From positions 62,001 to 126,000 of the IMG/VR virus record IMGVR_UViG_3300020220_000008: a DNA stretch of 64,000 nt. One strand, given 5' to 3'. The position numbers and the translations under genes are program-made. Numbering within the stretch: position 1 is the stretch's first letter; every line of letters starts with the position of its first letter. The notes under the pieces were generated by a model. It was not told the DNA's origin, ran no database searches, and worked only from the letters and a program-made list of their open reading frames with translations. Source of the stretch: a virus. Of the stretch, positions 8,201 to 45,494 are shown one piece after another.

Positions 8201-9357
8201 TATTCTGTTTTAAAAAAATATAAATTTTGTCCGCTGTTTAAGACTATCGGAACTTTAGTGTCCATGTAAGTATTGAACCAAGATGATCCATATAAAAAAA
8301 CTTTTTGTTGGTATAGTGTAAGTGCATTTGTATAATTTGTCATTTCGGTAAGAACACCTAAATTTTCTTTAGCAAAATCATTCAAAACATTGTCAATGAA
8401 TTTTTGTAATCTAAAATTCAATTGATTGAGAGTTAACTCGGGAAAATTATCCGGTATTAATCCTTTTGATTTATAATCCGAATAAATTTCTTTCATTTTT
8501 TGATATCCCCTACTTACAATTTTCGGTTTCTGAATTGATTCTTCTTTTGTTTGTGATCCTTGAGTTTTACTAGCAGAGGCCAAATTTACTACATTATTAT
8601 ACATATGTGGAACTGCCATAAGAGATCCAAAATTTACATATGAAAGTAAAGTATATTTATATCCATAAAATTTTAGAGTTATATCAAAATTATGTGTTGT
8701 TGAATTAAATTTAGAAGAAAAACTTTGCAACATTATAGGAAACTTTACGGCTTTTCCATAGTAACCTTTCATTGTTAGTGTAAATTGTGGATAAGGTAGT
8801 TGAAAAAACGCCGAATAAGGGGAGTTGTTTCCTCCTTCGAAAAGAGCTCTTCCTTTTACATCTTCTAACTCAATGTCTATAACTGGTAAAAAGTCTGTAC
8901 CAAGTGAAAATCTAATATTTGTAATACCCAAAAAACCGTTGTCTACTGCGCCTGGTCGTCCGTTTGACCAAAGATTTTGAGTTATGTAATAATCATCACT
9001 TTTATTTGGATTTTTAACGGAGGTTAATTTAGGTTGATTAACTCCTTGACCTTGTAATGTATTTTTTCCTGTCAATTCATCAGACCATGCGGTATCTAAA
9101 AATTTTTTATGACCAGGATTTAAAAAGTTAATTTTACCAACAGAAATTGTTCTCTGTTGGTCATTCATTGCAGAGCCAACCGCTAATTTTGTTCTTGGCA
9201 AAACGTTGCACTCCAAGTTGGCGTAAAAAATTAAATCTTCTTGTTTTACAAGTCGGTCTTTTACGTTACCCTCTTGATCAATAAGTTTGTTGGGATCAAT
9301 TAAAGCTATGTTATCGTAGTCAAATTCAACAAGTATATTTTCCCCGTTATCTGCCAT
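2254..9357 (-). CDS. Giant baseplate hub-type tail protein (2367 aa)
   Basis: A very large structural protein in the tail module. Residues about 155-250 carry a hub-like segment (SPYSAFFQLPYPQFTLTMKG followed by GYYGKAVKFP). Residues about 2045-2100 (ECSVDMMGCALIQPMMYFNI, then NVPMFSGPYMITKITHDI) resemble the second half of gp27-like hub proteins. Residues about 1150-1330 hold an inserted array of beta modules with repeated Gly-rich turns (GGTGTYNI, NSNGIYKL, GGKGIYLI). The last 140 residues form a helical domain that could be a cell-wall-degrading or lytic domain, but no catalytic residue can be assigned. The start overlaps the LysM gene by 11 nt. It is far longer than T4 gp27 (391 aa), so it probably fuses several baseplate functions. 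Confidence 0.7.
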   Translation of the reverse strand: MADNGENILVEFDYDNIALIDPNKLIDQEGNVKDRLVKQEDLIFYANLECNVLPRTKLAVGSAMNDQQRTISVGKINFLNPGHKKFLDTAWSDELTGKNTLQGQGVNQPKLTSVKNPNKSDDYYITQNLWSNGRPGAVDNGFLGITNIRFSLGTDFLPVIDIELEDVKGRALFEGGNNSPYSAFFQLPYPQFTLTMKGYYGKAVKFPIMLQSFSSKFNSTTHNFDITLKFYGYKYTLLSYVNFGSLMAVPHMYNNVVNLASASKTQGSQTKEESIQKPKIVSRGYQKMKEIYSDYKSKGLIPDNFPELTLNQLNFRLQKFIDNVLNDFAKENLGVLTEMTNYTNALTLYQQKVFLYGSSWFNTYMDTKVPIVLNSGQNLYFFKTEYDAQKRETAITELNGIILENNKRLNENSVFGEKGSYTVGTKVVQSKISVPIDIKTFTKKELITNVDIEKSFRNVPNSPKGQLSPANTPISSVTSTDIAYQIYKGTLEDLFKLVDGVFYFFEGPKSFMSITDNIGKSAQKFRTQIEQQITENLASKFNSQGKGSLGFTPSIRNILAVFYCQGEAFLRLMDEVHKKAWEQRENPYRKAAIFGNQTTAPSVDIKGSTQNNEPIYPWPQVIQETVGDDNQEKFQIIYPGAQNVANSYRAYNPEIWPEVEFVEQFIKGYTQRQNDADKSAAEFNELDSQPSRISLNGIDFPISNEVFQNKEESKYFYEIYERIILNSYFSRLNRKSGYDLSIYEAEGDDEAVNILKSLGQDNPFLAKTIKEYLLDSNNYVPFLRHISNQGQGESWQSFIRGQFVTNYIKNDVENPNVLFNEDIIISTKSQPNVSVSNPKNITNLTKYFENSSVSNTFEFGDTYPITDLKWDKKNLADGKSLNNANEVFDTQKVLNYNTVQLTITNFTEDNDDNKVRPFTHFNFLDLNVNSSISNLKSFYKDRQLKDQLITEGNILYENYNENITQTQTTSMLNTPYFINAIQQGVFNFRYKQNDPYPYKTAAYLFLNSLPLGTLREKYKTFDGQAITDLSYILATIKKFGAVHKLPYAWILKYGSIWHRYKIYDNTGKDFIDDVWKDFNYLENWDPGFSSSTKTFNLNIDGNQKNLVLQQTTGNKPFTDMTTGFYPQTLDDFNVFLQGLKLFSGQTQVSGIAKTRSISGNCNVFTVTGTCSSSGNVLSVSSITKNLITVGDQLKITIGNTIINLIVNSFGPNTSGGTGTYNITPGLTSNVTSFILNSYVSVSGLTLNSLGTGSILSGSTINPAITIQTQYSGPSNSNGIYKLNTYTANTTTSDFRVLNPPLQVDQIYSNVLTQGQIINGPNFNGDITIISQISGTTGGKGIYLISSNQADSVTSPFVVQNQYIQGISSGSIQPLLDNKKLIMFNTLDSTIYGSIGFDPSNKLRTMRISPYSVVVRTTDTTGYYVLPSFGTNINQAKDETFRNGNMKKELFDNPSMFNGTVRLFWNAPQYGWFNNSQVKKNNPITYLKQILNEQKDQQNFLITGKQNDYTNFEELFTTFDIKTLDLFESEFLNFSRSIYDYVDTLPPTTNSESLTQLNVMKNQDGSYTQVSNNQPNFKTIVSDQTYKNFQGLMRELLKIQTPTGTSPETKLTEIIASQNTQFQQVLSGFMNYDIVFKFGNPTQFNRRLYLTFSTRFLEDPFIYGPYENGTLPPQVSLSASQQQSPETWKKLLNYVGTSSIPELEYKNNGSYITDFFIDMNVQFNEKNVEDFAPIIKLYASEKLKKNNLNLTSFYNLMDSYIIESDNYIGNVINVMLPQVRKNLPSVLINQEFAENRANLEAGFTEQTRTELWETFKALNDSWIAGFDFQNKTLFEDVMLVDRASRNVGDKIIVDIFLIQDLIKDGSYKNTLLDMITTILVQNNFQYFMLPSYVNFYNVQDTQKNPTPRPDGTLEFGNTLFGTFLNVDYRNSSPKFLCYYANKPSEHLDMKDNIDYRYRDDAFDLRRASDNPLQENQSYKKDWDKSNKVVGFNVDITRPNQQIFKSFAVNQTPGKPTAESLEMLNQMANLGGNRRSTTQSVSLYNLYKNRSYECSVDMMGCALIQPMMYFNIRNVPMFSGPYMITKITHDISEENFTTNFQGTRQPFYSLPKIDNFLQTLNIKILETIQTRIQQNEKKERESSKNVLAQKDNILSNIKSEETLTKNQDCVENINPIYLKYTGLDTPKPTTQTIKQLFEQIKKQLIASGYSATGETTAVIANMAFSFVYVDSGKENGIFSYEHNYNTINLKEIYGPNFINLIKKNYFCVTRGTNSNLPIAAFNSFEDFVKFLVDKTSPILTLLKAEQNNFDFNTREGVSSAIAKMYVLNYPVEQPPNVYTTLTEQEKLSLRDEFLKANNAFLTVQTFTIT

Positions 9358-23831: not shown

Positions 23832-24346
23832 TATAATCCTCTAAATTCATTTGGTCCAACAGGAGCCGCGATTATGGTCTTGAAAAAAGGTTTGAACCCT
23901 TTATACGTATGTTTTGTATCAGATACAACTCGACCATCATTAACAACCGTATAATAACGAACAAAATTTTCACTATCGTAATAACCAACGTAGTCTCCAA
24001 AATCAATATCTATTTGTAAATCTTGTAAAGTTTTCAAATAAACCGATATTGTAATGTTTCCTGGCTCAACCTGATCCATTTTTGTTGATGTCCCAATAAA
24101 TTTGTTTTCGGGGGCTGCGATAGTTACTTGAGCATTAAACTCAACGGGGGGTAAAAATTTTATTCCGTCACTAACAACTTCACCATAAACATCATCGGTT
24201 TTAATTTTGTTTGTATCAATTTTATATAAAACACAAGTGTAATTCATGTCACCAATTAACCACTCTTGACCCATACCAATCTCAAGTTCAAAGTCTTTAT
24301 CTCCAAAAAATTTACCAAGTCTTGTTATTGGAACATTACTCTTCAT
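23831..24346 (-). CDS. Neck protein, possibly gp14-like
   Basis: A 171-residue protein. The segment VLYKIDTNKIKTDDVYGEVV, followed by KFLPPVEFNAQVTIA, resembles the 'Y-K/E-x-D-x-x-x-T-x-D-x-Y-G-E' block of T4-type neck proteins (T4 gp14 is 256 aa). The remainder is beta-rich. Its stop overlaps the next ATG as TAATG, so it is coupled to the putative tail-completion gene. A TATTTAT box lies 15 nt upstream and is shared, in divergent orientation, with the helicase gene. It is the first gene of the minus-strand tail module. Confidence 0.55.
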   Translation of the reverse strand: MKSNVPITRLGKFFGDKDFELEIGMGQEWLIGDMNYTCVLYKIDTNKIKTDDVYGEVVSDGIKFLPPVEFNAQVTIAAPENKFIGTSTKMDQVEPGNITISVYLKTLQDLQIDIDFGDYVGYYDSENFVRYYTVVNDGRVVSDTKHTYKGFKPFFKTIIAAPVGPNEFRGL

Positions 24347-24361
24347 TATATTGTTTTATTG

Positions 24362-24373
24362 ATAAATATTTAT
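24362..24373. promoter_or_regulatory. Divergent TATTTAT boxes between neck gene and helicase
   Basis: The segment ATAAATATTTAT holds a minus-sense TATTTAT (24362-24368), 15 nt from the neck gene ATG, and a plus-sense TATTTAT (24367-24373), 30 nt before the presumed helicase start. The two overlap by 2 bp. Confidence 0.45.
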
Positions 24374-24403
24374 TTTATTGTTATTTTTAGTAAAAGACTT
24401 GGA

Positions 24404-27301
24404 TTGGATAATATATCGTCTTTAGTTGAACACAAAGCTCTTGAACTACTTAACTCTTATAGTGGTGCAAATAACTATATACTTTTTTTAAAACAAAAAA
24501 AAGAAAACTCAAAAAAGTTTTATCCCACAAGGGCTCAGGCTGATTACATTGTCTCTTATTTTGAAACAACACCAAAGGTTGCAAGAAAATGGGTTGACTT
24601 AGACACTTATTTCTCTAAAAAGTTTGCTGAAGAAAAATATTTGCTAGAAATCCCAAATCAAATCTATGTTGAAAAAGTATTAGTTGAAAAAGAAAAGTCT
24701 TATCATATTTGGGGTAAGTTTTTTGAAAAGGATCAATTATCTGAATTTTGGGTTCCTAAATCTGCACTTATCAAAACACATAACGTTCAGAGTGTTGAAA
24801 TTGATTATTCTAAGTATTCTCATCGTCCTCCTCTAAATCACCAAAAAATTGCGATTGAAAAATTGGCAGGTTCAAAAAGATTTATTTTGGCAGACGATAT
24901 GGGACTTGGCAAAGCGGAATTCGTTGAAAACAGAGTATTTACCCCTAATGGTAGAAAAAAAATAGGGGATTTGATTGTTGGTGATGAAGTAATTGGTAGT
25001 GATGGTAAAAAATGTTTAGTTAGAGGTGTTTATCCTCAAGGAATTAAAGATTTATATAGAGTCACGTTTAATGACGATTCTTCTGTTTTAGTTTCTAAAG
25101 AGCATTTATTTTCTGTTAAATCAAGAAGTTTTGGTGATAATACTAAAAATAAAAGAAATAAAGAATCTATTGTATTATCGGTTGAACAAATGTTAGACGA
25201 AAACTTAACTCTTGGGATTAATGGTTCACAGAATAATAAAAATAGGACATATAACTATAAAACATTTTTTAAAGAAAAAAATGGTAACAATAAATGGCAA
25301 ATTCCTATTGTAAAACCAATAGAATTTAATCATAATAGTTTACCACTTAACCCATATTTATTAGGTCTTATTTTAGGTGATGGTGGTATAACACAAAAAG
25401 GTATTAGTTTTACAACAAAAGATGATGAAATTGTTGAGTATATTATAAATATTCTACCAAAAAATACACAAATTATCAAAAATAATAATTCAAAGTATGG
25501 TTATAGAATAACAAAAATAAATGGACACAGAAATGAAGTTATACAAATTTTAAAAGAATTAAATTTAATGGGTTGTGGATCAGAAAATAAATTTATTCCA
25601 AACATATACAAATATTCATCAATTGAATCAAGATTAGAAATTATAAAAGGTTTGATGGATACTGATGGAACTTGTTCAGTTAGTAAAAAAGGGTGCTTTG
25701 AAGGGACTGAATTTTCAACAACATCTGAAAAATTATGTAATGATGTTATTGAAATTGTTAATAGTTTAGGTGGTATTGCAAGAAAAAAATCACGAAAACC
25801 TTGGTATAGACATAAAGGTATCAAAAAAGAAGGTAAAAAATCTTATAGGGTAAATATTAAATTACCAAAACATATGAATCCGTTCAAACTTAGAAGAAAA
25901 TTTAATTTGTATAATAACCCAAAAAAATATAAAGTTGGTAGATATATCAAAGATATTAAATATGAAGGTGTTGGTGAAGCAGTTTGTATTTCTGTTAATT
26001 CACCAGATAAATTGTATGTTACTGAAAACGCTATTGTTACACATAATACAACATCAACAATAATCGCAGCACTTGAAACTCAGGCAAAAAAAATATTAAT
26101 TGTTTGTCCGGCATCATTAAAAATAAATTGGCAAAGAGAAATTGAGAACTATTCAGATCGTTCCGTTTTTATTTGTGAAGGAAAAAAGTTTTCAACCGAA
26201 CATGATTTTGTAATTATCAATTACGATATATTAAAAAACTTCCACGATCCAAAAAGTAAGGAATTAACTTTATTAGAACAATGTAATTTTGATTTGGTTA
26301 TTTTGGATGAGGCACATATGATCTCGAACGCTCAAGCACAAAGAACAAAAATCATTAATAGTTTTGTTAAAAAAATTAATAGAGTATGGTTGTTAACTGG
26401 AACGCCGATGACTTCACGACCTATGAATTATTACAATCTTTTGAGTATCATCGAAAGCCCTGTTGCACAGAATTGGATGGCATACGCCATTCGATACTGC
26501 CAAGGGTATCAGTTTAAAGCGGGAAATAGAAAAGTATGGAATGTTACAGGAGCCTCTAACTTAGAAGAGTTAAGAGATCGAACTTCTAAACAAATCCTTA
26601 GACGATTAAAAGAAGAAGTTTTAGACCTACCTGATAAAATTATTACACCTGTATACTTGAGATTACAATCAAAAGAATATGAAAATCTAATGGGCGAATA
26701 CTATGATTGGTATGATAAAAATCCTGACGAATCATCATCACTTACCGTTCAGTTTTCAAAGTTAATGAAAGTTAGAAAAGTAATTGCCAACGAAAAAACA
26801 AGACAAACTATTGAATTTGCCGAAAACATTTTAGAACAAGGGAAAAAAGTTATTATTTTTACAAACTTTACAGACTCACTCCAAACAATCTATCAACACT
26901 TTAGAAAACAAGCGGTTTATTTAGATGGTAGTTGTTCTAACTCAGTTCGTCAACAAGCTGTTGACCAATTTCAAACAGATGAAAAGATCAAAGTGTTTGT
27001 AGGAAATCTCAAAGCCGCAGGAGTTGGTTTGACATTAACGTCCGCTGAGGTTGTTATTATGAACGACCTTTCATTCGTACCGGCAGAACACTCACAAGCT
27101 GAAGACAGGGCTTACCGATACGGTCAGAAATCAAATGTATTAGTTTACTATCCTATTTTTGATAACACAATCGAAGCGGCGATTTATGATATTTTAATTA
27201 AAAAGAAAGAAATCATAAGAACTGTAATGGGTGATCAAATACCTGAAAATGTAGGTGATGTTGCTGAAGAAATTCTTAACATGATTCTTAAGTATAAATA
27301 A
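24404..27301 (+). CDS. SNF2/UvsW-like DNA helicase interrupted by an intein
   Basis: A superfamily-2 helicase; with the intein removed it has about 588 residues (T4 UvsW is 503). Extein motifs: Walker A DDMGLGK-T split by the intein, motif II VILDEAHMISN, motif III WLLTGTPMTS, motif V NLKAAGVGLTL and motif VI SQAEDRAYRYGQ, typical of SMARCAL1-type SNF2 proteins. Such enzymes remodel forks and recombination intermediates. No ATG lies between the promoter box and the conserved region, so TTG at 24404 is proposed. The reading frame is open further upstream over the divergent neck gene, but that part is unlikely to be coding. The start remains uncertain. Confidence 0.85.
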   Translation: MDNISSLVEHKALELLNSYSGANNYILFLKQKKENSKKFYPTRAQADYIVSYFETTPKVARKWVDLDTYFSKKFAEEKYLLEIPNQIYVEKVLVEKEKSYHIWGKFFEKDQLSEFWVPKSALIKTHNVQSVEIDYSKYSHRPPLNHQKIAIEKLAGSKRFILADDMGLGKAEFVENRVFTPNGRKKIGDLIVGDEVIGSDGKKCLVRGVYPQGIKDLYRVTFNDDSSVLVSKEHLFSVKSRSFGDNTKNKRNKESIVLSVEQMLDENLTLGINGSQNNKNRTYNYKTFFKEKNGNNKWQIPIVKPIEFNHNSLPLNPYLLGLILGDGGITQKGISFTTKDDEIVEYIINILPKNTQIIKNNNSKYGYRITKINGHRNEVIQILKELNLMGCGSENKFIPNIYKYSSIESRLEIIKGLMDTDGTCSVSKKGCFEGTEFSTTSEKLCNDVIEIVNSLGGIARKKSRKPWYRHKGIKKEGKKSYRVNIKLPKHMNPFKLRRKFNLYNNPKKYKVGRYIKDIKYEGVGEAVCISVNSPDKLYVTENAIVTHNTTSTIIAALETQAKKILIVCPASLKINWQREIENYSDRSVFICEGKKFSTEHDFVIINYDILKNFHDPKSKELTLLEQCNFDLVILDEAHMISNAQAQRTKIINSFVKKINRVWLLTGTPMTSRPMNYYNLLSIIESPVAQNWMAYAIRYCQGYQFKAGNRKVWNVTGASNLEELRDRTSKQILRRLKEEVLDLPDKIITPVYLRLQSKEYENLMGEYYDWYDKNPDESSSLTVQFSKLMKVRKVIANEKTRQTIEFAENILEQGKKVIIFTNFTDSLQTIYQHFRKQAVYLDGSCSNSVRQQAVDQFQTDEKIKVFVGNLKAAGVGLTLTSAEVVIMNDLSFVPAEHSQAEDRAYRYGQKSNVLVYYPIFDNTIEAAIYDILIKKKEIIRTVMGDQIPENVGDVAEEILNMILKYK
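24914..26047 (+). mobile_element. Intein with LAGLIDADG homing endonuclease, Ala1 type
   Basis: A 378-residue in-frame insertion exactly after the Walker A Lys (MGLGK). It begins AEFVENRVFTPNGRKKIGDL, a splicing block A with Ala rather than Cys or Ser at position 1, and ends NAIVTHN before an extein Thr. The two endonuclease motifs are LLGLILGDGGI near residue 155 and IIKGLMDTDGT near residue 250, the DOD/LAGLIDADG pair, each retaining its acidic residue. Ala1 inteins splice by direct attack of the +1 residue (here Thr) on the upstream scissile bond. Both endonuclease motifs are intact, so the element may still be mobile. Confidence 0.92.
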
Positions 27302-27335: not shown

Positions 27336-27342
27336 TATTTAT
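27336..27342 (+). promoter_or_regulatory. TATTTAT box 5 nt upstream of the SOD fusion gene
   Basis: TATTTAT ends only 5 nt before the ATG at 27348. If it acts as a -10 element, the transcript would start at or next to the ATG, that is, be leaderless. Confidence 0.45.
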
Positions 27343-27347
27343 CGTAA

Positions 27348-29489
27348 ATGAAAGTCTACATTAAATACGAAACTCCGGAATTAAAAAAAAACAAAGATTT
27401 TGTAGAAAAATTTATCAATTTTCTACAAAAAGAGTATCCTTTGAAAACAAATTTAAAATTAATGTTTTTAAATGATAGATATGGAAAAATGTCTACAGGA
27501 AGTAGAAGGGGGGACAATTTGATTAAAGTGCTAGCCAAAGGTAGACTAAACAGAGATATCATGAGAACTTTAGCACATGAATGGGTTCATGAATACCAAA
27601 TGACAATTTTGAAAAGAAAACAAGGCCCAAATATTGGTGGAGTTAATGAAGATGAGGCAAACGCATTTGCTGGTCAAATTGTTAAAAAATTTGAAGAATC
27701 TTATCCTGAACTAGAATCAATAATGTATGAATCGAAATCAATTACAGGAAAATTAAATCTACTTACGGAACAAATGTTATTAACTGAAAAAAATTTAATT
27801 AAGGATAAATTTATTTTGGAAATGAAAAAAATTGGGATTGATAAACTACCATATTCTTATTCATCTCTAAAAAAATTTATTGATACAAAAACTATGGATA
27901 TTCACTACAACAAACATTACAAAGGTTATGTTAATAAGTTGAATAAGTCTTTGAAAAACAAAGACGGTGACATGGAATTAGAAGAAATTATTAAATCTAT
28001 AAGTAGATTCGACACTAAGGTTAGGAACAATGCTGGCGGTGCGTTTAATCATGCTTTGTTTTGGAAAATGTTATCGCCGAAAAAACAAATACCAAGAGGA
28101 GAGATATATAAACAAATAAAAAAAGATTTCGGAAATATTAAAAAAATGAAAGACGAATTCAATCAAGCAGCAAAAGATCGTTTTGGTTCTGGATGGGCTT
28201 GGTTATATCTTTCTAAAGATGGTAAATTAAAAATAATGTCTACCCCTAATCAAGATAACCCACTTATGAATGTTGTAAAAAAAGGAGGGTTTCCACTTTT
28301 AGGCTTGGATGTTTGGGAACACGCATATTATTTAAAATACCAAAACAAAAGAGATGAATATATTAATAATTTTTGGAATGTTGTAAATTGGGATTTTATT
28401 GAGGAGTTATATTTATCAAAAACAAAAAAAACAATCAAAGAAGATATTTTTAATAAAGGAGTCATTAACGAGATTAGTAAAACTTTTGCATTCCCATATA
28501 CCACAAAAGGCTTAAGAGAACTTATACATTCTCAATATGTTGGTTGTTACAATAAACAATATAAAAATGGTTGTCTAGGTAAAATAGAAACAAAAAAATG
28601 TACAACTGAATTAGGGGTTTTAGGTGGTGATTATTCTGAAAAAAAATTCGGAGGTACTAGTCAGTGGTCGATAATTAATAGATTCGATACTAATAGTCGT
28701 GTTAAAAAAGAAATCTATAATATATGGTTAGAAGAAACTCAAGGAGTAATCGACTTCAAAACATGGATCAAGGATCACGCATATGATTTATTTGCGAACG
28801 ATGGAATGTATTTAGATAGATTGGCAGAACCAAATATAGGAACTATTGAGATTGGTAAAGATAATGAAAGTTATGCAAAACAAATAATTAGACAAATATA
28901 CAATCTTAGTCCTGATCAAGAGGGTGTATCTTATGAATTATATGAACATTGTTCTGGCGATGTTAATGATAGAAAGAAAGGACAAGATATTGTTTTAATT
29001 ATAAAAGGGGGAGATACCATATATTTCCAAGTCAAACCTTTTTTAAATAAAAACAATGAAATTGAATATTTCGATGGTGGAGATAGAGGGTATTATTTTA
29101 AAGTTTCATCATGGCATAGACAAACAAAATATAAAGGGGAAAATGTCGATGTAATTTTATATGTAGACAGAACCGAAAATAAATATGTAATGTTTAGAAA
29201 TGACCACAATAGAATGTTAACGATAAGTAACCCGAAAACACAACCGCCTTACTTTATTTATTATTATGAAATGCCGCTACAAAGTAATTTTGAAATTCCT
29301 ATACAAAAAGAAATTTCTAAAATACCTGTCAAAAATTCAATATCTAGAGACGTTAAAAAAGAAATTGACTTTTATAAAGAAAGAATTAAATATTTTACCA
29401 ACAAAATAAAAGAACTTGGGGGTGAAAATCAAGAAATAAGAAAACTAGTAGAATTATATAAAAAAAATTTAAACAAGATAATAATATAG
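27348..29489 (+). CDS. Zincin-like protease / Mn-type superoxide dismutase / unknown C-domain fusion
   Basis: A 713-residue protein with three parts. Residues 1-120 hold a zinc-metalloprotease motif, TLAHEWVHEYQM (HExxH at 77-81), with a downstream Glu-rich segment. Residues 163-356 are a full-length Fe/Mn superoxide dismutase: KLPYSYSSLKKFIDTKTMDI, NNAGGAFNHALFW, FGSGWAWL, TPNQDNPL and LDVWEHAYYL. All four metal ligands are present (about H186, H235, D321, H325). The Gly in AGG and Gln in NQD match the Mn type. Residues 370-713 are unassigned; GQDIVLII and IYFQVKPF weakly recall a PD-(D/E)xK nuclease core. The gene lies between helicase and neck genes, and a TATTTAT box is 5 nt from the ATG. 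Confidence 0.85.
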   Translation: MKVYIKYETPELKKNKDFVEKFINFLQKEYPLKTNLKLMFLNDRYGKMSTGSRRGDNLIKVLAKGRLNRDIMRTLAHEWVHEYQMTILKRKQGPNIGGVNEDEANAFAGQIVKKFEESYPELESIMYESKSITGKLNLLTEQMLLTEKNLIKDKFILEMKKIGIDKLPYSYSSLKKFIDTKTMDIHYNKHYKGYVNKLNKSLKNKDGDMELEEIIKSISRFDTKVRNNAGGAFNHALFWKMLSPKKQIPRGEIYKQIKKDFGNIKKMKDEFNQAAKDRFGSGWAWLYLSKDGKLKIMSTPNQDNPLMNVVKKGGFPLLGLDVWEHAYYLKYQNKRDEYINNFWNVVNWDFIEELYLSKTKKTIKEDIFNKGVINEISKTFAFPYTTKGLRELIHSQYVGCYNKQYKNGCLGKIETKKCTTELGVLGGDYSEKKFGGTSQWSIINRFDTNSRVKKEIYNIWLEETQGVIDFKTWIKDHAYDLFANDGMYLDRLAEPNIGTIEIGKDNESYAKQIIRQIYNLSPDQEGVSYELYEHCSGDVNDRKKGQDIVLIIKGGDTIYFQVKPFLNKNNEIEYFDGGDRGYYFKVSSWHRQTKYKGENVDVILYVDRTENKYVMFRNDHNRMLTISNPKTQPPYFIYYYEMPLQSNFEIPIQKEISKIPVKNSISRDVKKEIDFYKERIKYFTNKIKELGGENQEIRKLVELYKKNLNKIII

Positions 29490-30650: not shown

Positions 30651-30998
30651 ATGGCAATCGTAAGAAAAAAACCAATCAGAAAAACAGTTTTTAGAGGTGA
30701 TAGATCATTGAATTTGGACACGTTTGACACAATAATTACGAGTGAAAATTTTTACAAAACTAATGGTGAAAACTTAATAATAGTTAAAGATGTAAATATT
30801 TGTAAAATTAAATTAGACTCTACTACAACAGATACTATAAAAATAAAAACCTTGACTAACTGTACCATAATTCCTGACATAAATAGAATAGATGAGGAAT
30901 GGGATGAAATATCAGTCGGTAAAGGAGCTTGTGTTGAGTTACAAAATGTTAACGGTGTTTGGTACATCCTATCTTCTGACGGAGTAAAACTTGAGTAG
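30651..30998 (+). CDS. Small beta-rich protein of unknown function
   Basis: A 115-residue protein with a basic N-terminus (MAIVRKKPIRKTVFRGDRS) followed by alternating short strands and a C-terminal VELQNVNGVWYILSSDG. That ending is common in small phage decoration or fibre-tip proteins of beta-helix type. It starts 4 nt after the gp13-like stop and so is probably co-transcribed. Its 3' end overlaps the convergent DNA polymerase gene by 30 nt. No family is assigned. Confidence 0.6.
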   Translation: MAIVRKKPIRKTVFRGDRSLNLDTFDTIITSENFYKTNGENLIIVKDVNICKIKLDSTTTDTIKIKTLTNCTIIPDINRIDEEWDEISVGKGACVELQNVNGVWYILSSDGVKLE

Positions 30999-33788
30999 GT
31001 CATTTTCAGGAACATAACTCAACATTGTTTTATCGGCATTTTTGTACATGTGATATGGAGTTTCATTAACTCTATTCCAAAATGACATTTCTTCATCTGA
31101 TATTTCCATTACATCTTCCAACTTGTCTTGATCACCCTCATCGAAAGGTTGCCCATTTATTAGTTCACATTGGTCTTTAGTGAAGAAAGGTCTATCTTCA
31201 GGATTCTTTACTAATAATCCGTTTCTTACTTCTTGTTTAAATACAACAAGTAATGGTTCAACTCTTTTATTAAATGTTAAAATTGCTCTTTGGATATTGT
31301 ATTGACCTTTCATTGCTGGGTTGTTTTCTAAATCCGAAGGGTCAATACGATAACAATTTAACTGAATTATAGAATCTAAGTTATCAGGAATACTTCCACC
31401 GTAAGTATCGATATGTTCTTGTGACCAACCTTTTTTTGGTCTGTTAACTTTCTGAACATCTCCGTGCGATGCTTTTGTTGCGTTGTTTACATAAAAGATT
31501 ACATCACCAAGATTAATATTAAGACCTTCTTTTATTGCAAGTTCCATATGTGCTTGACGAGACATTAAACTTCCTGCCTTTGTAGTTTGTTTACTACGAA
31601 TGATATACTCGTCAATACTTTGTTTTACTTTAGCTTTGTTTGCAATATCCATAAGAGGTATTTGTAAATCAAATATTTGTTGTACATATTCATAGTACCA
31701 TTCCACAAACTCTTGTCCTTTACCATCAAGAAGTAATTTGATTCCTTTATCCAAGAATTTCTCAATATAGATTGGCATTTTTTTAGATTTGATTGAGTTA
31801 CCTGTAAGTTTGATTTTACCTTTTGCGGTCATAAGAGCGTAGTTCTTACGAGCTAAGTTTATACATGCAGGCCATTGACCATCAGTATCAAGAGCCATCT
31901 CACCTCTCATTGCAAGATCGTTAAACTCCATTACATCAGCTTCCTCACCGAAATATTCTCCACCTTCTTTGACTTTCCAGTTCAGACCTTTACCAACATA
32001 TTTTCTTTCTTCAACACCTTCAGGAACCGAAAAGTTAATACCGTCCGTGTCCATTACAAGAGGTGTATAACCACGATCCATAAAGAAATGAATCATCATA
32101 CGAAGATACTGACGACCTGTGCAAGTAATCATCTCACCTTTGTCCATATCACCCCAATGAAAAACTTGTGGAGCCGACAAGGCACCAAACATAGAGTTAA
32201 TAAAAATCTTGATCGGTAATTGTTTTCGGTCATACGAAGTTGATTTCTTTTTATCGATCGTTGCATATTCCTCGGCCATTTGTTTGTATTTAATACGAGT
32301 ATTACGGAAGTATGATAATAAACCTTTCATTGCGCCTGTTACATCACACTCGGGGAATACATCGTGTACCAACTGAATAGAAGGGTATAGAGATGAGTAG
32401 TCGAGTTTTAATACATTCTTCGAATAACCTGTTCGGATCAAACGAGAAAGTCCGCCTACGAAGTTCCCTTTGTCGTTTTTTGCAGGAATCGCAAGTGCAT
32501 GTTTATAAGACCAAGCTAACATCAACATTTTCCATAATGTTGCAGTTCCCATAGTTGAAACCCTTTCATATGTTGTTGGAAGAAGTGATGCCAACAAAAA
32601 AGATCCTTGATTGAATTCTTCGTCAACCAATAGAGTTTCTTCTAAGTCATCGTCAAGATAACGCTCAATAATGTCGGCACCTGTTGTTTTAATATAAACA
32701 TTCGGGTGTCTACCGCAAACTTCATCAATCTTTGAATCTATACCAACTTTTTTGTATTTACCATTTTCAATATTTAACCAATACTCCTCCTTCTTCCGAT
32801 ACATAGATCCAATTTTATTATGTTCAACATAAATACGATCAGGGGATTCAGCCTCAATATATTTGGTAATATACTTCAAACCTGCTTCTTTGATGTTTGA
32901 ATTAATTGCTTGAGCTCTTCTAACTGAATGCAGAATATCAATAATGTTATAACCCCACATTTGAGTTTGAGTAAACTTCTCTACTTCGTTTGCAAGTTTC
33001 AACATTGACTCTTTTTGTGAAATAGATTTCTCAGGGTTAAACGATTTGGCAACTCGTTTAATATCAAGATTTAAAATTTTACATCTTTCATAAATCCAAT
33101 ACCAGTCAAAGTTAAATGAGTTGTATCCTGAAAGAATGGAAGGTTTTTGTTCCTCAATAATATTAAAGAACTCCGTAATACCTCTACGTTCTTCGTCTTC
33201 ATTAGCACATTCAATAACTTTTTTAAATCCTTTATTTGTTTTAATTCCGATCATGAAGATACGACCATCCTTGGGCTCAAGTGAGGTAGTTTCAAGGTCA
33301 AATACCATTCTCGTAATGTCGTTGTATTCTTCGAAACCTTTAAATAATCTTTTTTCTTTTGATATGAGGTATTGTTCAACGGGAGGTAATACCATTATGA
33401 GGTCTCTTACATTTTCACCCCAAGGGTCTACTCCACCTTCTCTAAAGAACTGAATGAGGTTTCTATAACCTTTCATAGATTTTACAAGAAATGTTAAACC
33501 ACGTTCTAAACGATCATTACCGTCAGTTCGTAGTTTTTCAATTATTATACCATGTTTGGTCATGGCTTCTTTTTGTAATGTCTTAGATTTCGAATAGAAG
33601 TTGAGATTTCGTAGATCACCCACCCAAGCAAAAGATACTAAAGTATCTAGTTGGATCTGTTTTCCTTTATTAGGAACTTCTTTTATTTTGAAAATCTTGT
33701 CTGTTAGATAATCGTATTCTACTGATACGATGAATTCTTCAGGATCATTACCCTGAAGAAATTGTTCTATTTCTTCTTGTGATATCAT
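30969..33788 (-). CDS. 43: DNA polymerase, family B, gp43-like
   Basis: A 939-residue replicative polymerase with proofreading domain (T4 gp43 is 898 aa). Exo I is MVFDLETTSLEP near residue 162; Exo II is LSGYNSFNFDWYWIYE near 220. Polymerase motif A is LKLDYSSLYPSIQ near 462, motif B KIFINSMFGALSAP near 532 and motif C VMDTDGINF near 580. Motif C has DTDG where family-B enzymes usually have DTDS; both catalytic Asp are kept. The gene is alone on the minus strand between converging plus-strand genes and the Pro-Thr proteins. A minus-sense TATTTAT at 33845-33851 is 57 nt upstream, too far to assign with confidence. Confidence 0.95.
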   Translation of the reverse strand: MISQEEIEQFLQGNDPEEFIVSVEYDYLTDKIFKIKEVPNKGKQIQLDTLVSFAWVGDLRNLNFYSKSKTLQKEAMTKHGIIIEKLRTDGNDRLERGLTFLVKSMKGYRNLIQFFREGGVDPWGENVRDLIMVLPPVEQYLISKEKRLFKGFEEYNDITRMVFDLETTSLEPKDGRIFMIGIKTNKGFKKVIECANEDEERRGITEFFNIIEEQKPSILSGYNSFNFDWYWIYERCKILNLDIKRVAKSFNPEKSISQKESMLKLANEVEKFTQTQMWGYNIIDILHSVRRAQAINSNIKEAGLKYITKYIEAESPDRIYVEHNKIGSMYRKKEEYWLNIENGKYKKVGIDSKIDEVCGRHPNVYIKTTGADIIERYLDDDLEETLLVDEEFNQGSFLLASLLPTTYERVSTMGTATLWKMLMLAWSYKHALAIPAKNDKGNFVGGLSRLIRTGYSKNVLKLDYSSLYPSIQLVHDVFPECDVTGAMKGLLSYFRNTRIKYKQMAEEYATIDKKKSTSYDRKQLPIKIFINSMFGALSAPQVFHWGDMDKGEMITCTGRQYLRMMIHFFMDRGYTPLVMDTDGINFSVPEGVEERKYVGKGLNWKVKEGGEYFGEEADVMEFNDLAMRGEMALDTDGQWPACINLARKNYALMTAKGKIKLTGNSIKSKKMPIYIEKFLDKGIKLLLDGKGQEFVEWYYEYVQQIFDLQIPLMDIANKAKVKQSIDEYIIRSKQTTKAGSLMSRQAHMELAIKEGLNINLGDVIFYVNNATKASHGDVQKVNRPKKGWSQEHIDTYGGSIPDNLDSIIQLNCYRIDPSDLENNPAMKGQYNIQRAILTFNKRVEPLLVVFKQEVRNGLLVKNPEDRPFFTKDQCELINGQPFDEGDQDKLEDVMEISDEEMSFWNRVNETPYHMYKNADKTMLSYVPENDLLKFYSVRR

Positions 33789-40241: not shown

Positions 40242-43200
40242 ATGCCACAATATAATAGATTAACTGATAGGTCGAGAGTTTCTGCGGTCACACTGAATGA
40301 CATTATACATGTTGTTGTTACTGGTGATACATCACAGAGTCCTCAGGGATCATCATATTTTGCACCTTTAAGTGATTTACAATCAATATTAAGCGGATCA
40401 AGTGGTACCAATGGTACTTCAGGAACAAATGGAACTAGCGGTACTAATGGTACCTCAGGAATTAATGGGACTAGTGGTTCTTCAGGAACTTCTGGCTCAT
40501 CAGGAATAAGTGGAACATCGGGTTCTTCAGGAACAAGTGGTGTTTCAGGTACCAATGGATCAAGTGGTTCAAGCGGTACAAGTGGAATTAATGGTACATC
40601 AGGATCTTCAGGTATTGATGGTAGTAGTGGAACTTCAGGTTCAAGTGGAACCAATGGTACTAGTGGTACAAATGGTTTTGACGGAACATCAGGATCATCA
40701 GGAACTAGTGGTTCTTCAGGATTAAGTGGAACAGATGGTACGTCGGGAAGTTCTGGAACAAGCGGAACAGATGGTACTAGCGGTACGAATGGAACAAGCG
40801 GAACAGATGGTAGTTCAGGAACTAGCGGAACTTCAGGTTCAAGCGGTATTGCTGGGACTAGCGGAACTTCAGGTTCTTCAGGGATAGACGGAACAAGTGG
40901 TACTTCAGGTTCTTCAGGTATTGACGGCACTTCAGGAACATCGGGATCAAGCGGAACAAGTGGTACTAATGGAACTGATGGGTCTAGCGGTACGGATGGA
41001 ACTAATGGGTCAAGTGGAACTTCAGGAACCAACGGTACAGATGGAAGTAGTGGAACATCAGGTTCTAGTGGAACAAATGGTACTAGCGGGTCATCCGGAT
41101 CTAGCGGTACATCAGGGTCAAGTGGAACTAATGGTACTAGCGGGTCTTCAGGTACATCAGGAACTAACGGTACTAATGGAACAAGTGGAAGTAGCGGTAC
41201 GGACGGAACATCAGGGTCTTCAGGAACTAATGGGACATCAGGTACAAATGGTACATCAGGAACCAATGGAACTTCAGGAACGAACGGTACAAATGGTACA
41301 TCAGGAACCAATGGAACTTCAGGGACAAGTGGAAGTAGCGGTACCGACGGAACATCAGGGTCTAGCGGTACTAGCGGAAGTTCGGGAACAAATGGAACAT
41401 CAGGGTCTAGCGGATCAAGTGGTAGTTCAGGTTCTAGCGGTACAGACGGTACTTCAGGTACTTCAGGTTCAAGTGGTATAGACGGTACATCAGGTACATC
41501 AGGGAGCTCAGGCTCAAGCGGAACAAGTGGTTCTTCAGGCTCTAGTGGAACAAATGGTTCTTCAGGAACCTCAGGAACTAGCGGCTCTTCAGGTACAGAT
41601 GGTACAAGTGGAACAAGTGGTTCATCAGGGACTAGCGGTTCTTCAGGAACAAGTGGTTCATCAGGAACTAGCGGTTCTTCAGGAACAAGTGGTTCATCAG
41701 GTACCTCAGGTTCTAGTGGAAGTTCAGGTACAGATGGTACATCAGGAACAAGTGGTTCTTCAGGTTCTAGTGGAAGTTCAGGTACAGATGGTACATCAGG
41801 AACAAGTGGTTCATCAGGAACAAGTGGAAGTTCAGGTACAGATGGTTCATCAGGAACAAGCGGTTCATCAGGTACTTCAGGAAGTTCAGGTTCATCAGGT
41901 ACTTCAGGAAGTTCAGGTTCATCAGGTACTTCAGGAAGTTCAGGTTCATCAGGTACTTCAGGAAGTTCAGGTTCATCAGGAACAGATGGTACAAGTGGTA
42001 CAAGCGGCTCATCAGGAACAAGCGGTTCATCAGGTACATCAGGGAGCTCAGGTTCAAGCGGAACAAGCGGTTCATCAGGTACTTCAGGAAGTTCAGGTTC
42101 ATCAGGTACTTCAGGAAGTTCAGGTTCATCAGGAACAGATGGTACTTCAGGTACATCAGGTTCTAGTGGCTCATCGGGTTCCTCTGGAACAAGTGGTTCT
42201 TCAGGAACCTCAGGTTCTAGCGGCTCATCGGGTACTGATGGCACGTCTGGTACAAGTGGATCATCAGGAACAGATGGTACAAGTGGATCATCAGGAACAG
42301 ATGGTACAAGTGGTACATCAGGAAGTTCAGGTACAAGTGGTTCTTCAGGTTCATCAGGAACTTCAGGAAGTTCAGGCTCCTCAGGTACAAATGGTACTTC
42401 AGGGACTGATGGGACTAGCGGAACATCAGGTTCTTCAGGAACTAGCGGAAGCTCAGGTTCTTCAGGAACTAGCGGAAGCTCAGGTTCTTCAGGAACTAGC
42501 GGAAGCTCAGGTTCATCAGGCACTTCAGGTAGCTCAGGTTCTTCAGGAACTAGCGGAAGCTCAGGTTCTTCAGGAACTTCAGGAAGTTCAGGCTCCTCAG
42601 GTACAAATGGTACTTCAGGGACTGATGGGACTAGCGGAACATCAGGTTCTTCAGGAACTAGCGGAAGCTCAGGTTCTTCAGGAACTAGCGGAAGCTCAGG
42701 TTCTTCAGGAACTAGCGGAAGCTCAGGTTCATCAGGCACTTCAGGTAGCTCAGGTTCTTCAGGAACTAGCGGAAGCTCAGGTTCTTCAGGAACTTCAGGA
42801 AGTTCAGGTTCTTCAGGTACAAATGGTACTTCAGGGACTGATGGGACTAGCGGAACATCAGGTTCTTCAGGAACTAGCGGAAGCTCAGGTTCTTCAGGAA
42901 CTAGCGGAAGCTCAGGTTCATCAGGCACTTCAGGTAGCTCAGGTTCTTCAGGAACTAGCGGAAGCTCAGGTTCTTCAGGAACTTCAGGAAGTTCAGGTTC
43001 TTCAGGTACAAATGGTACTTCAGGGACTGATGGGACTAGCGGAACATCAGGTTCTTCAGGAACTAGCGGAAGCTCAGGTTCATCAGGCACTTCAGGTAGC
43101 TCAGGTTCTTCAGGAACTAGCGGAAGCTCAGGTTCTTCAGGAACTTCAGGAAGTTCAGGTTCTTCAGGAACTTCAGGAACTTCAGGTACAAGTGGAACAA

Positions 43201-45494
43201 ATGGAACCAGCGGAACTAATGGTACTTCAGGGACAAATGGTACTAGCGGTAGTTCAGGGACAAATGGTACATCAGGTACTAATGGAACTAGCGGGACAAA
43301 TGGGACAAGCGGAACTAGTGGGACCAACGGCACATCAGGGTCTAGTGGAACAAATGGAACTTCAGGCTCAAGCGGTACCAATGGAACATCAGGAAGTTCG
43401 GGCACGAATGGTACAAGTGGGTCTTCAGGCACTAACGGTACGTCAGGAACTAATGGAACCTCAGGAACGAACGGTACGAATGGTACTTCAGGAACAAATG
43501 GAACATCAGGTACTAATGGAACAAATGGTACTAGCGGTACAAATGGAACATCAGGTACAAACGGAACATCAGGTACCAACGGTACTAGTGGAACGTCGGG
43601 AACAAATGGAACCAACGGTACAAGCGGTACCAATGGTACAAGTGGAACTAACGGAACTAGTGGTACAAACGGAACAAATGGTACTTCAGGCACAAACGGA
43701 ACCTCAGGAACAAATGGAACCAACGGTACAAGCGGTACAAATGGAACATCAGGTACCAACGGTACTAGTGGAACGTCGGGAACAAATGGAACCAACGGTA
43801 CAAGCGGTACCAATGGTACAAGTGGAACATCGGGCACAAACGGAACCTCAGGAACAAATGGAACCAACGGTACAAGCGGTACAAATGGAACATCAGGTAC
43901 AAATGGAACATCAGGTACAAACGGAACAAATGGCACTAGCGGTACTAATGGAACAAATGGCACTAGCGGTACTAATGGAACATCGGGCACAAACGGAACC
44001 TCAGGAACAAATGGAACCAACGGTACAAGCGGTACAAGTGGAACCAACGGAACTTCAGGTACAAACGGGACAAATGGTACTAGCGGAACTAACGGTACTT
44101 CAGGTGTTAACGGAACAAGTGGTACAAATGGTACTTCAGGCACTAACGGTACGTCAGGAACAAATGGAACTAGTGGTACATCACCGTCGGTACCGGGAGG
44201 GGGGGGCAAAGTTTTAACATCAGATGGGTTGGGTGGGATTACGGCAGAATCAAATTTAACTTTTGATGGTACAGAATTAATCGTGACAGGTTATCAAAGA
44301 GTTGTTGATACAGTGGGAGGGGCACTTGGAAGTTTAAGAGTGGATAGTGCTGTCACTAACTTTTTACACAACGCAATATCTGTAACCAATACAGGAGATT
44401 TTACTAACACAAATTCATTAGTGGGTGTTAATGTGGATGTTACGGATGGTATTTTTTCTAACACATGTTTTGCAGGTTCAACATTTTCCGCATACGGTAG
44501 TAATTATGGTATCGATTTGAGAAACAGTTCCACCGAAACCGGTTCTTCACAATACGGAGCGTCAGTTAGTGTAAACGGTTCAGGACCAACAGAAAAGTAT
44601 GGGTATTATGGTTCTGTTAGTAATACTTCAGATTATAATTATGGTGTTTATGTCAATGTTGAGGACGCGACTGTGGAGAACTACGGACTTTATTCAAGAA
44701 TTGCTAGTAGTGTTGGAGACACATACGGGTTTTATATATCAAATACAGGTACGGATTCAGGTGGTTCTGATTTACATTATGGTGGAAAAATTCTTGTTAG
44801 TGGTATAGGTCAACCAACAAGTACAGTAAAATACGGGTTGGAAATTGATTTGACTGGTGATGCAAAAATTAATTATGGAGTTCACATTGATGTTGCAGGC
44901 GCAACAGACAATTTTAGTATTGTTACTCAAAATGGTTTTGCAATTTTTAATAACCTTGGCACATCAACCGCAGATTTTCAAGTCAAAGGAGACACGGATG
45001 ATAATCTTATTTATGTTGATGCCTCCACAGATAATTTAGGGATTGGGACAAACTTACCATCAAGAAAATTACATGTAAATGGTGATTATACTTTTGTTCA
45101 CAACCCAACTTCAGAATTAACTTCATCTGTTAGTGGTTATGGTGATATAGTAACATTTGGTTCGGGAAGTTTAACAGCAGGTGATTTATACTATTTGACA
45201 AGTTTGGGGTCTTGGTCGGCAACTGATGCAGATGCAGCGTCAACAGCAACAGGAATGTTAGCGTTTGCGTTGGGGTCCTCCGCATCGGACGGTATGTTAG
45301 TTAGAGGTTATATTAGAAATTCAGGATTTACAACAAATACAGGTAACATAGTCTATGTCTCAACAACCACAGGTGCTGTAACTACAACCGCACCATCAGG
45401 TAGCGGAGACATTATTAGAATTATTGGTTATAGTATAGACGGAACAAATGAAATAATTTATTTTAACCCTGATAATAGTTGGGTAGAGGTTTAA
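40242..45494 (+). CDS. Collagen-like tail fibre, 1750 aa
   Basis: N-terminal residues 1-50 (MPQYNRLTDRSRVSAVTLND) are a probable attachment domain. Residues about 52-1312 are some 420 uninterrupted Gly-X-Y triplets built almost only from Gly, Ser, Thr, Asn and Asp (GTSGTNG, GSSGTSG, GTDGTSG), with no proline in the repeat. The end is marked by TSPSVPGGGGK. Residues about 1320-1750 form a beta-rich head: a region of repeated 'Y-G-x-Y' strands (EKYGYYGSV, NYGVYVNV, NYGLYSRI, DTYGFYIS), then GDTDDNLIYVDASTDNLGIG, then a C-terminal adhesin-like domain. Bacterial and phage collagen repeats trimerise into rods, so this is probably a long trimeric fibre. Ser/Thr density makes it a plausible glycosylation target. 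Confidence 0.85.
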   Translation: MPQYNRLTDRSRVSAVTLNDIIHVVVTGDTSQSPQGSSYFAPLSDLQSILSGSSGTNGTSGTNGTSGTNGTSGINGTSGSSGTSGSSGISGTSGSSGTSGVSGTNGSSGSSGTSGINGTSGSSGIDGSSGTSGSSGTNGTSGTNGFDGTSGSSGTSGSSGLSGTDGTSGSSGTSGTDGTSGTNGTSGTDGSSGTSGTSGSSGIAGTSGTSGSSGIDGTSGTSGSSGIDGTSGTSGSSGTSGTNGTDGSSGTDGTNGSSGTSGTNGTDGSSGTSGSSGTNGTSGSSGSSGTSGSSGTNGTSGSSGTSGTNGTNGTSGSSGTDGTSGSSGTNGTSGTNGTSGTNGTSGTNGTNGTSGTNGTSGTSGSSGTDGTSGSSGTSGSSGTNGTSGSSGSSGSSGSSGTDGTSGTSGSSGIDGTSGTSGSSGSSGTSGSSGSSGTNGSSGTSGTSGSSGTDGTSGTSGSSGTSGSSGTSGSSGTSGSSGTSGSSGTSGSSGSSGTDGTSGTSGSSGSSGSSGTDGTSGTSGSSGTSGSSGTDGSSGTSGSSGTSGSSGSSGTSGSSGSSGTSGSSGSSGTSGSSGSSGTDGTSGTSGSSGTSGSSGTSGSSGSSGTSGSSGTSGSSGSSGTSGSSGSSGTDGTSGTSGSSGSSGSSGTSGSSGTSGSSGSSGTDGTSGTSGSSGTDGTSGSSGTDGTSGTSGSSGTSGSSGSSGTSGSSGSSGTNGTSGTDGTSGTSGSSGTSGSSGSSGTSGSSGSSGTSGSSGSSGTSGSSGSSGTSGSSGSSGTSGSSGSSGTNGTSGTDGTSGTSGSSGTSGSSGSSGTSGSSGSSGTSGSSGSSGTSGSSGSSGTSGSSGSSGTSGSSGSSGTNGTSGTDGTSGTSGSSGTSGSSGSSGTSGSSGSSGTSGSSGSSGTSGSSGSSGTSGSSGSSGTNGTSGTDGTSGTSGSSGTSGSSGSSGTSGSSGSSGTSGSSGSSGTSGSSGSSGTSGTSGTSGTNGTSGTNGTSGTNGTSGSSGTNGTSGTNGTSGTNGTSGTSGTNGTSGSSGTNGTSGSSGTNGTSGSSGTNGTSGSSGTNGTSGTNGTSGTNGTNGTSGTNGTSGTNGTNGTSGTNGTSGTNGTSGTNGTSGTSGTNGTNGTSGTNGTSGTNGTSGTNGTNGTSGTNGTSGTNGTNGTSGTNGTSGTNGTSGTSGTNGTNGTSGTNGTSGTSGTNGTSGTNGTNGTSGTNGTSGTNGTSGTNGTNGTSGTNGTNGTSGTNGTSGTNGTSGTNGTNGTSGTSGTNGTSGTNGTNGTSGTNGTSGVNGTSGTNGTSGTNGTSGTNGTSGTSPSVPGGGGKVLTSDGLGGITAESNLTFDGTELIVTGYQRVVDTVGGALGSLRVDSAVTNFLHNAISVTNTGDFTNTNSLVGVNVDVTDGIFSNTCFAGSTFSAYGSNYGIDLRNSSTETGSSQYGASVSVNGSGPTEKYGYYGSVSNTSDYNYGVYVNVEDATVENYGLYSRIASSVGDTYGFYISNTGTDSGGSDLHYGGKILVSGIGQPTSTVKYGLEIDLTGDAKINYGVHIDVAGATDNFSIVTQNGFAIFNNLGTSTADFQVKGDTDDNLIYVDASTDNLGIGTNLPSRKLHVNGDYTFVHNPTSELTSSVSGYGDIVTFGSGSLTAGDLYYLTSLGSWSATDADAASTATGMLAFALGSSASDGMLVRGYIRNSGFTTNTGNIVYVSTTTGAVTTTAPSGSGDIIRIIGYSIDGTNEIIYFNPDNSWVEV
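42384..43166 (+). repeat. Nested tandem repeats inside the fibre gene (216/216/189/162 bp)
   Basis: Four near-identical units start at 42384, 42600, 42816 and 43005 with GGTACAAATGG. Their lengths are 216, 216, 189 and 162 bp (72, 72, 63 and 54 codons). They differ by multiples of 27 bp, the length of an inner 9-residue repeat GTSGSSGSS. All changes keep the frame, so fibre length can vary by slippage or recombination. Confidence 0.9.

Follow-up and report, generated by a model that had tools for sequence, protein, structure and literature searches.

Known systems comparable to the protein reported here include the internal head proteins IPI–III and Alt of phage T4, together with the T4 prohead protease gp21, which prefers Leu or Ile at P3. 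The T4 capsid protein gp23 loses a 65-residue N-terminus (PMC9958956), and T4-related prohead proteases in general cut after a Glu preceded by a short motif, often several times per propeptide (PMC5694885, PMC9026906). The inner-body and ejection proteins of phages phiKZ and SPN3US have large propeptides with several prohead-protease sites, which are likewise cut after Glu (PMC5694885). Most of the known cuts take off an N-terminal propeptide; in SPN3US, the protease's own cut is the only exception. On the side of the superoxide dismutases (SODs), the points of comparison are the bacterial SodA enzymes with their Sod_Fe_N and Sod_Fe_C domains, and the free-standing SODs of tailed phages, namely the Pseudomonas phage PA5oct group and Vibrio phage 2.275.O. 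Our literature search recovered no paper on a phage SOD fusion, and no HExxH–SOD fusion was found among annotated phage records.

A family of HExxH–SOD fusions in T4-related phages

The window analyzed here, a stretch of 64,000 nucleotides from a 152-kb virus record (IMG/VR IMGVR_UViG_3300020220_000008), carries an open reading frame of 713 uninterrupted codons. As the initial annotation had recognized, an HExxH domain, an SOD and a C-terminal domain are combined in this single frame (Table 1), an architecture borne out by the reading of the ORF, by Pfam and by its relatives: a search of IMG/VR for further proteins with the HExxH–SOD pairing uncovered 122 distinct ones besides that of the window. 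The family is widespread in T4-related phages, mostly from freshwater. Because complete HExxH–SOD–C proteins are found on many independent contigs from different samples and metagenomes, the arrangement recurring in dozens of separately assembled sequences whose fusion proteins have diverged to about 54% identity at the extremes, an assembly chimera is ruled out, the chance of one being practically nil.

Table 1. Features of the fusion gene and its product (positions in the window; residues in the 713-aa protein)
Feature	Position	Strand	Remarks
TATTTAT box, late-promoter-like	27336..27342	+	5 nt before ATG
Whole ORF: HExxH domain, SOD, C1 module	27348..29489	+	713 aa, ATG start
HExxH zincin-like domain, residues 1-127	27348..27728	+	invariant HExxH and E101/E103
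HEWVH motif	27576-27590	+	HExxH, residues 77-81
NEDEAN	27645-27662	+	E101/E103, one of them the presumed third acidic ligand
Linker 1, residues 128-160	27729..27827	+	site density, conserved P3/P1, low pLDDT 129-145
Linker 1 sites	LTE 27762-27770; LTE 27780-27788; ILE↓M 27813-27821	+	[L/I]xE
Mn-type SOD, residues 164-356	27837..28415	+	Pfam, NCBIfam, closest structure, invariant residues
SOD metal ligands	H186 27903-27905; H235 28050-28052; D321 28308-28310; H325 28320-28322	+	invariant
Linker 2, residues 357-375	28416..28472	+	motif in 69/69 C-module forms; low pLDDT 361-379
Linker 2 sites	IKE 28434-28442; INE 28464-28472	+	[L/I]xE
C1 module, residues 376-713	28473..29486	+	predicted PD-(D/E)XK fold; motif E507, D547, Q561-x-K563

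The fusion gene is flanked upstream by an intein-bearing gene for a SNF2-type helicase and downstream by a gene for a head–tail connector, and the helicase–SOD–connector order is retained in 197 of the 291 and 196 of the 260 loci that are long enough to show it, these loci overlapping and hence not being independent contigs. This position corrects the proposed placement among late structural genes. The helicase (24266-27301, + strand) is itself of note in that its intein, with a LAGLIDADG homing-endonuclease domain (Pfam matches LAGLIDADG_3 and Hom_end), lies near the ATP-binding site.

The TATTTAT box reported just ahead of the start codon is indeed present, and the element ATATTTAT is conserved upstream of the fusion gene in most of the relatives inspected. 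Of about 46 genes in the window, 12, among them the sheath, connector and fibre genes, have TATTTAT in the 40 nt ahead of them, and the DNA polymerase and helicase genes are without it; there are 53 occurrences overall on both strands, and we estimate the chance expectation for upstream positions to be below one. The ATATTTAT/TATTTAT box probably serves this lineage as its late promoter, and its recurrence ahead of structural genes such as that of the sheath supports, at the level of sequence, the late expression suggested for the fusion gene. Elsewhere in the window (40242-45494, + strand), a gene for a protein of 1750 aa with repeats of the GTNGTS type contains an open antisense frame of 1288 aa; the gene probably encodes a repetitive tail fibre, the antisense frame being its shadow.

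The fused domains and their variation

The SOD part is recovered by both Pfam models of the family, Sod_Fe_N at residues 164-243 (E 1e-20) and Sod_Fe_C at residues 249-353 (E 1.4e-41); among NCBIfam models, SOD [Mn] comes closest (E 2e-62, under that model's curated equivalog cut-off), and among solved structures the Sphingobacterium MnSOD 6gsc (E 3e-64). The four metal ligands, three His and one Asp, are invariant in the window protein and its 122 relatives, as are the second-sphere residues H190, Y194, W283, Q302, E324 and Y328. G231 is also invariant in the family, and we take from the SOD literature that such a Gly (position 77), together with a Gln equivalent to E. coli Q146 (here Q302), marks the Mn subtype. 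Thus, the prediction of a complete Mn-type SOD with all four ligands holds.

The phage SODs form a single clade on a long stem. Their best cellular matches are mostly from Bacteroidota, which are hence probably both the host of these phages and the source of the enzyme. The phage SOD is about 48-54% identical to bacterial SodA, the nearest being those of Bacteroidota, over the whole domain and retains all catalytic residues, but differs in being fused on both sides. In contrast, the free-standing SODs of PA5oct and the Vibrio phage are only about 32% identical to the fusion, the match being limited to the SOD alone.

The SOD is also the most conserved domain, with a mean pairwise identity of 83%, against 64% for the HExxH domain and 55% for linker 1. 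With every catalytic residue invariant, the notion that the SOD fold is used as a mere scaffold appears unlikely. A broader version of this idea would have the protein packaged as a structural component, with the SOD fold and the zincin acting as a scaffold or as a metal-bound stabilizer of the head or neck and any activity being incidental. The location of the gene directly upstream of the connector gene in most loci that extend far enough would suit such a role; we nevertheless consider it improbable, given that the HExxH...E residues are as invariant across the 122 proteins as those of the SOD active site, and that cutting would restore the size of a free SOD.

In the N-terminal domain, H77, E78, H81 and E101/E103 are invariant in all 122 relatives and the window protein, a configuration of HExxH plus a third acidic ligand that is typical of zincins, with either E101 or E103 likely to provide the latter. 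Family members show weak matches to DUF6055 (E 5e-5), SprT-like (0.01) and M78 (0.02) domains, and also to M76; a profile of the domain gave nothing meaningful against PDB sequences. Homologues occur as separate proteins in the cyanophages S-SRM01 and B23, and in L249.

The C-terminal end of the family exists in five states: none, C1 (as in the window), C2, C3 (about 320 aa) and C4 (about 125 aa). The C1 module had been described as a domain of 340 residues of no known type; the domain is there, but it is predicted to adopt a PD-(D/E)XK nuclease fold. Modelled with AlphaFold at good confidence (pLDDT 87.7), C1 matches I-Ssp6803I, SSV D212, the SPARDA nuclease and phage PD(D/E)XK proteins in Foldseek, its top PDB matches being within this superfamily but with E >= 5e-3. 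The residues invariant in 20 C1 sequences include E507, GQD547 and Q561xK563, which correspond to the conserved E...D...(E/Q)xK of the superfamily on the common core fold. C1 differs from the characterized nucleases, such as the SPARDA effector, in its low whole-length TM-scores, its lack of a family match by sequence, a Cys-containing N-terminal part and a helical tail; searches of C1 against PHROG and Pfam, and of C1 and C2 profiles against PDB sequences, gave no meaningful match. In the full-length model, the SOD part came out poorly from a shallow alignment, and its Foldseek result adds little to the sequence. The BFVD entry A0A6J5L953, a 501-aa “superoxide dismutase”, matches the C1 fold, so that a C1-type domain already exists under an SOD annotation. 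As for the other modules, C3 displays by eye a motif similar to that of C1 (FE..LLGG..PYD..ISCK) and C2 has an invariant D...ExK; homology of C1 and C2 is unsupported (hhalign probability 0.1%).

At least 14 changes of C-terminal state can be counted on the HExxH–SOD tree, and close sisters bear different modules, for example C2 in L108 and C1 in L124, or C2 in L105, C1 in L099 and none in L111. Since the modules have been swapped repeatedly on this tree, linker 2 is a recombination joint. This turnover, with near-identical carriers bearing different modules, would also suit a role in counter-defence or as a weapon against other phages, with the C-terminal nuclease as effector and HExxH–SOD as no more than its carrier. 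Such a reading is hard to square with the 40 distinct complete proteins in which HExxH–SOD persists without any C-module, and we give it little credence.

Linkers with prohead-protease-like sites

Across the family, [L/I]xE tripeptides reach 9.7 per 100 aa in linker 1 and 6.6 in linker 2, against 0.68 in the HExxH domain, 0.69 in the SOD and 1.3 in the C part; shuffling lowers the count to half for linker 1 and to a quarter for linker 2, and the excess is confined to the linkers. In the alignment, L/I and E are kept and the middle residue varies at 139-141, 145-147, 156-158 and 363-365, with the same conservation again, at other spacings, at 373-375; hence, P3 and P1 are conserved and P2 is variable. 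Every protein counted (111/111) has at least two such sites in linker 1. The linker 2 motif is found in all 69 C-module proteins and in none of the 40 short ones, which stop before it, although with tails of only about 6-10 aa this is a weak count. C3 and C4, discovered after the linker prediction had been written down, both carry it. It is this cross-family comparison of linkers that discriminates: within the single genome, [L/I]xE density does not, several other ORFs having equally dense windows.

The linker pattern is the prohead-protease consensus of T4 gp21, as in the sites of T4-type internal head proteins. After the third site of linker 1, the remaining chain opens with MKKIGIDKLPY, as free SODs usually do, and cuts there and at residue 365 would yield a 207-residue SOD, the size of the bacterial enzyme.

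Head genes and leader-bearing homologues

The major capsid protein of the record belongs to the Gp23 family (contig 148713-150650, E 1e-72) and carries FLINE60↓A at the T4 gp23 cleavage position, with LINE↓A being invariant in about 50 relatives; the linker sites are of the same type. The record ends within a presumed scaffold gene, placing the protease gene beyond the end of this contig. In L256, a contig with an identical capsid protein, and in L264 and L282, a head maturation protease (phrog_207, E 4e-40 to 7e-43; in L256 at 5198-5881) is encoded upstream of the scaffold and capsid genes, and the L264 and L282 contigs carry the SOD fusion too (L012 and L450). The lineage encodes a gp21-type protease.

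Free-standing homologues of C1 (L329, L334 and L274) are encoded close to the capsid gene, a few kilobases away at most, and one of C4 (L282) between the portal and protease genes. They start with MKISVSETQYQVILE or MKIIITENQYKLIKE, or in L274 with a weaker version, MKITITKNQLDTLKE. This [I/L]xE leader is common to five unrelated protein groups, none being expected by shuffling, and in the C4 fusion it is replaced exactly at its second [L/I]xE. By analogy, we infer that it is the counterpart of the T4 capsid-targeting sequence. The fusion itself, with the N-terminus MKVYIKYETPELKK, has no [L/I]xE leader, which is seen only on the free-standing module homologues.

Several further observations concern such N-termini. 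In L441 and L450, several tandem leader-bearing C4-type copies lie downstream of the SOD fusion gene. On the contig of the window but outside it, 5839-6438 and 6657-6881 encode small proteins with the leader MKIIITExQ..LI.EN common to the module homologues, and these are likely further head cargo. Other recurrent N-termini, MKRIVRLTENDLARIVRRVIRE and MKNLNxIIxKVIxE, occur at 752-1120, 30791-31114 and 146234-147705, and may be further targeting leaders. The 459-aa protein encoded at 6912-8291 has a leader-like N-terminus, LLRDLIVES, and weak leucine-rich-repeat matches (Pfam LRR_14 below the cut-off) that are unusual for a phage.

The lack of a leader on the fusion, along with the free-standing SOD genes of jumbo phages such as the PA5oct relatives, would fit a late but unpackaged enzyme of the infected cell, multifunctional and uncleaved, whose SOD protects the cell during head assembly and whose linkers are merely flexible charged helices; such helices do favour [L/I]xE-like motifs, which we count against cleavage. 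Nonetheless, this alternative strikes us as less likely, because the site-like pattern with its conserved P3 and P1 and variable P2 is confined to the linkers, is kept across four unrelated C-modules and matches the site in the capsid protein. The packaging raised as a possibility by the initial annotation gains strong indirect support from the linker sites, the Gp23 site, the gp21-type protease and the leader-bearing homologues in the head-gene cluster.

Functional interpretation

We moderately favour the view that the fusion is a late head precursor, packaged and cut at its linkers by the gp21-type protease into zincin, SOD and nuclease. The precursor would be made late and enter the prohead, where both linkers would be cut after [L/I]-x-E by the T4 gp21-type maturation protease, setting free the zincin-like domain, an Mn-type SOD of normal size and the exchangeable C-terminal module, which in this phage is the predicted PD-(D/E)XK nuclease. 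The released parts would stay inside the head and, as with the internal proteins of T4 or phiKZ-type phages, probably reach the host together with the DNA. There, early in infection, the SOD may scavenge superoxide, and the nuclease may have host DNA or that of a competitor as its target. We infer that the protein is expressed late, packaged, cut and delivered, and likewise what each of its enzymes is for. The fuller proposal, a head polyprotein whose metalloprotease-like part, catalytically active Mn-SOD and exchangeable nuclease are packed as one chain, cut apart and carried into the host along with the genome, is more tentative, and we place it somewhat short of even.

This phage resembles T4, with its IPI-III, Alt and gp21, in having a Gp23-type capsid site, a gp21-type protease, [L/I]xE sites and a late-type gene. 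Unlike in the T4 internal head proteins, the sites of the fusion lie between domains rather than in a short N-terminal capsid-targeting leader, and three enzyme-like domains are joined in one chain. As the fusion has no N-terminal leader, it is better described as working like a T4 internal protein than as a member of that class. The phiKZ and SPN3US proteins similarly have several prohead-protease sites cut after Glu, but they are cut at SxE or AxE motifs, shed their N-terminal part as a propeptide and include no SOD (PMC5694885). Since the known sites of prohead proteases serve mostly to trim N-terminal propeptides, cutting between domains would be unusual.

If this proposal is correct, the concept of phage internal head proteins, which refers to single proteins with a leader, would widen to multi-enzyme precursors that are cut where their domains meet, and a phage would bring in an antioxidant enzyme just as infection begins. 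Protease sites between domains would then be a searchable signature for head cargo in uncultured phages, and the swappable C-terminal slot would offer a ready catalogue of likely effectors.
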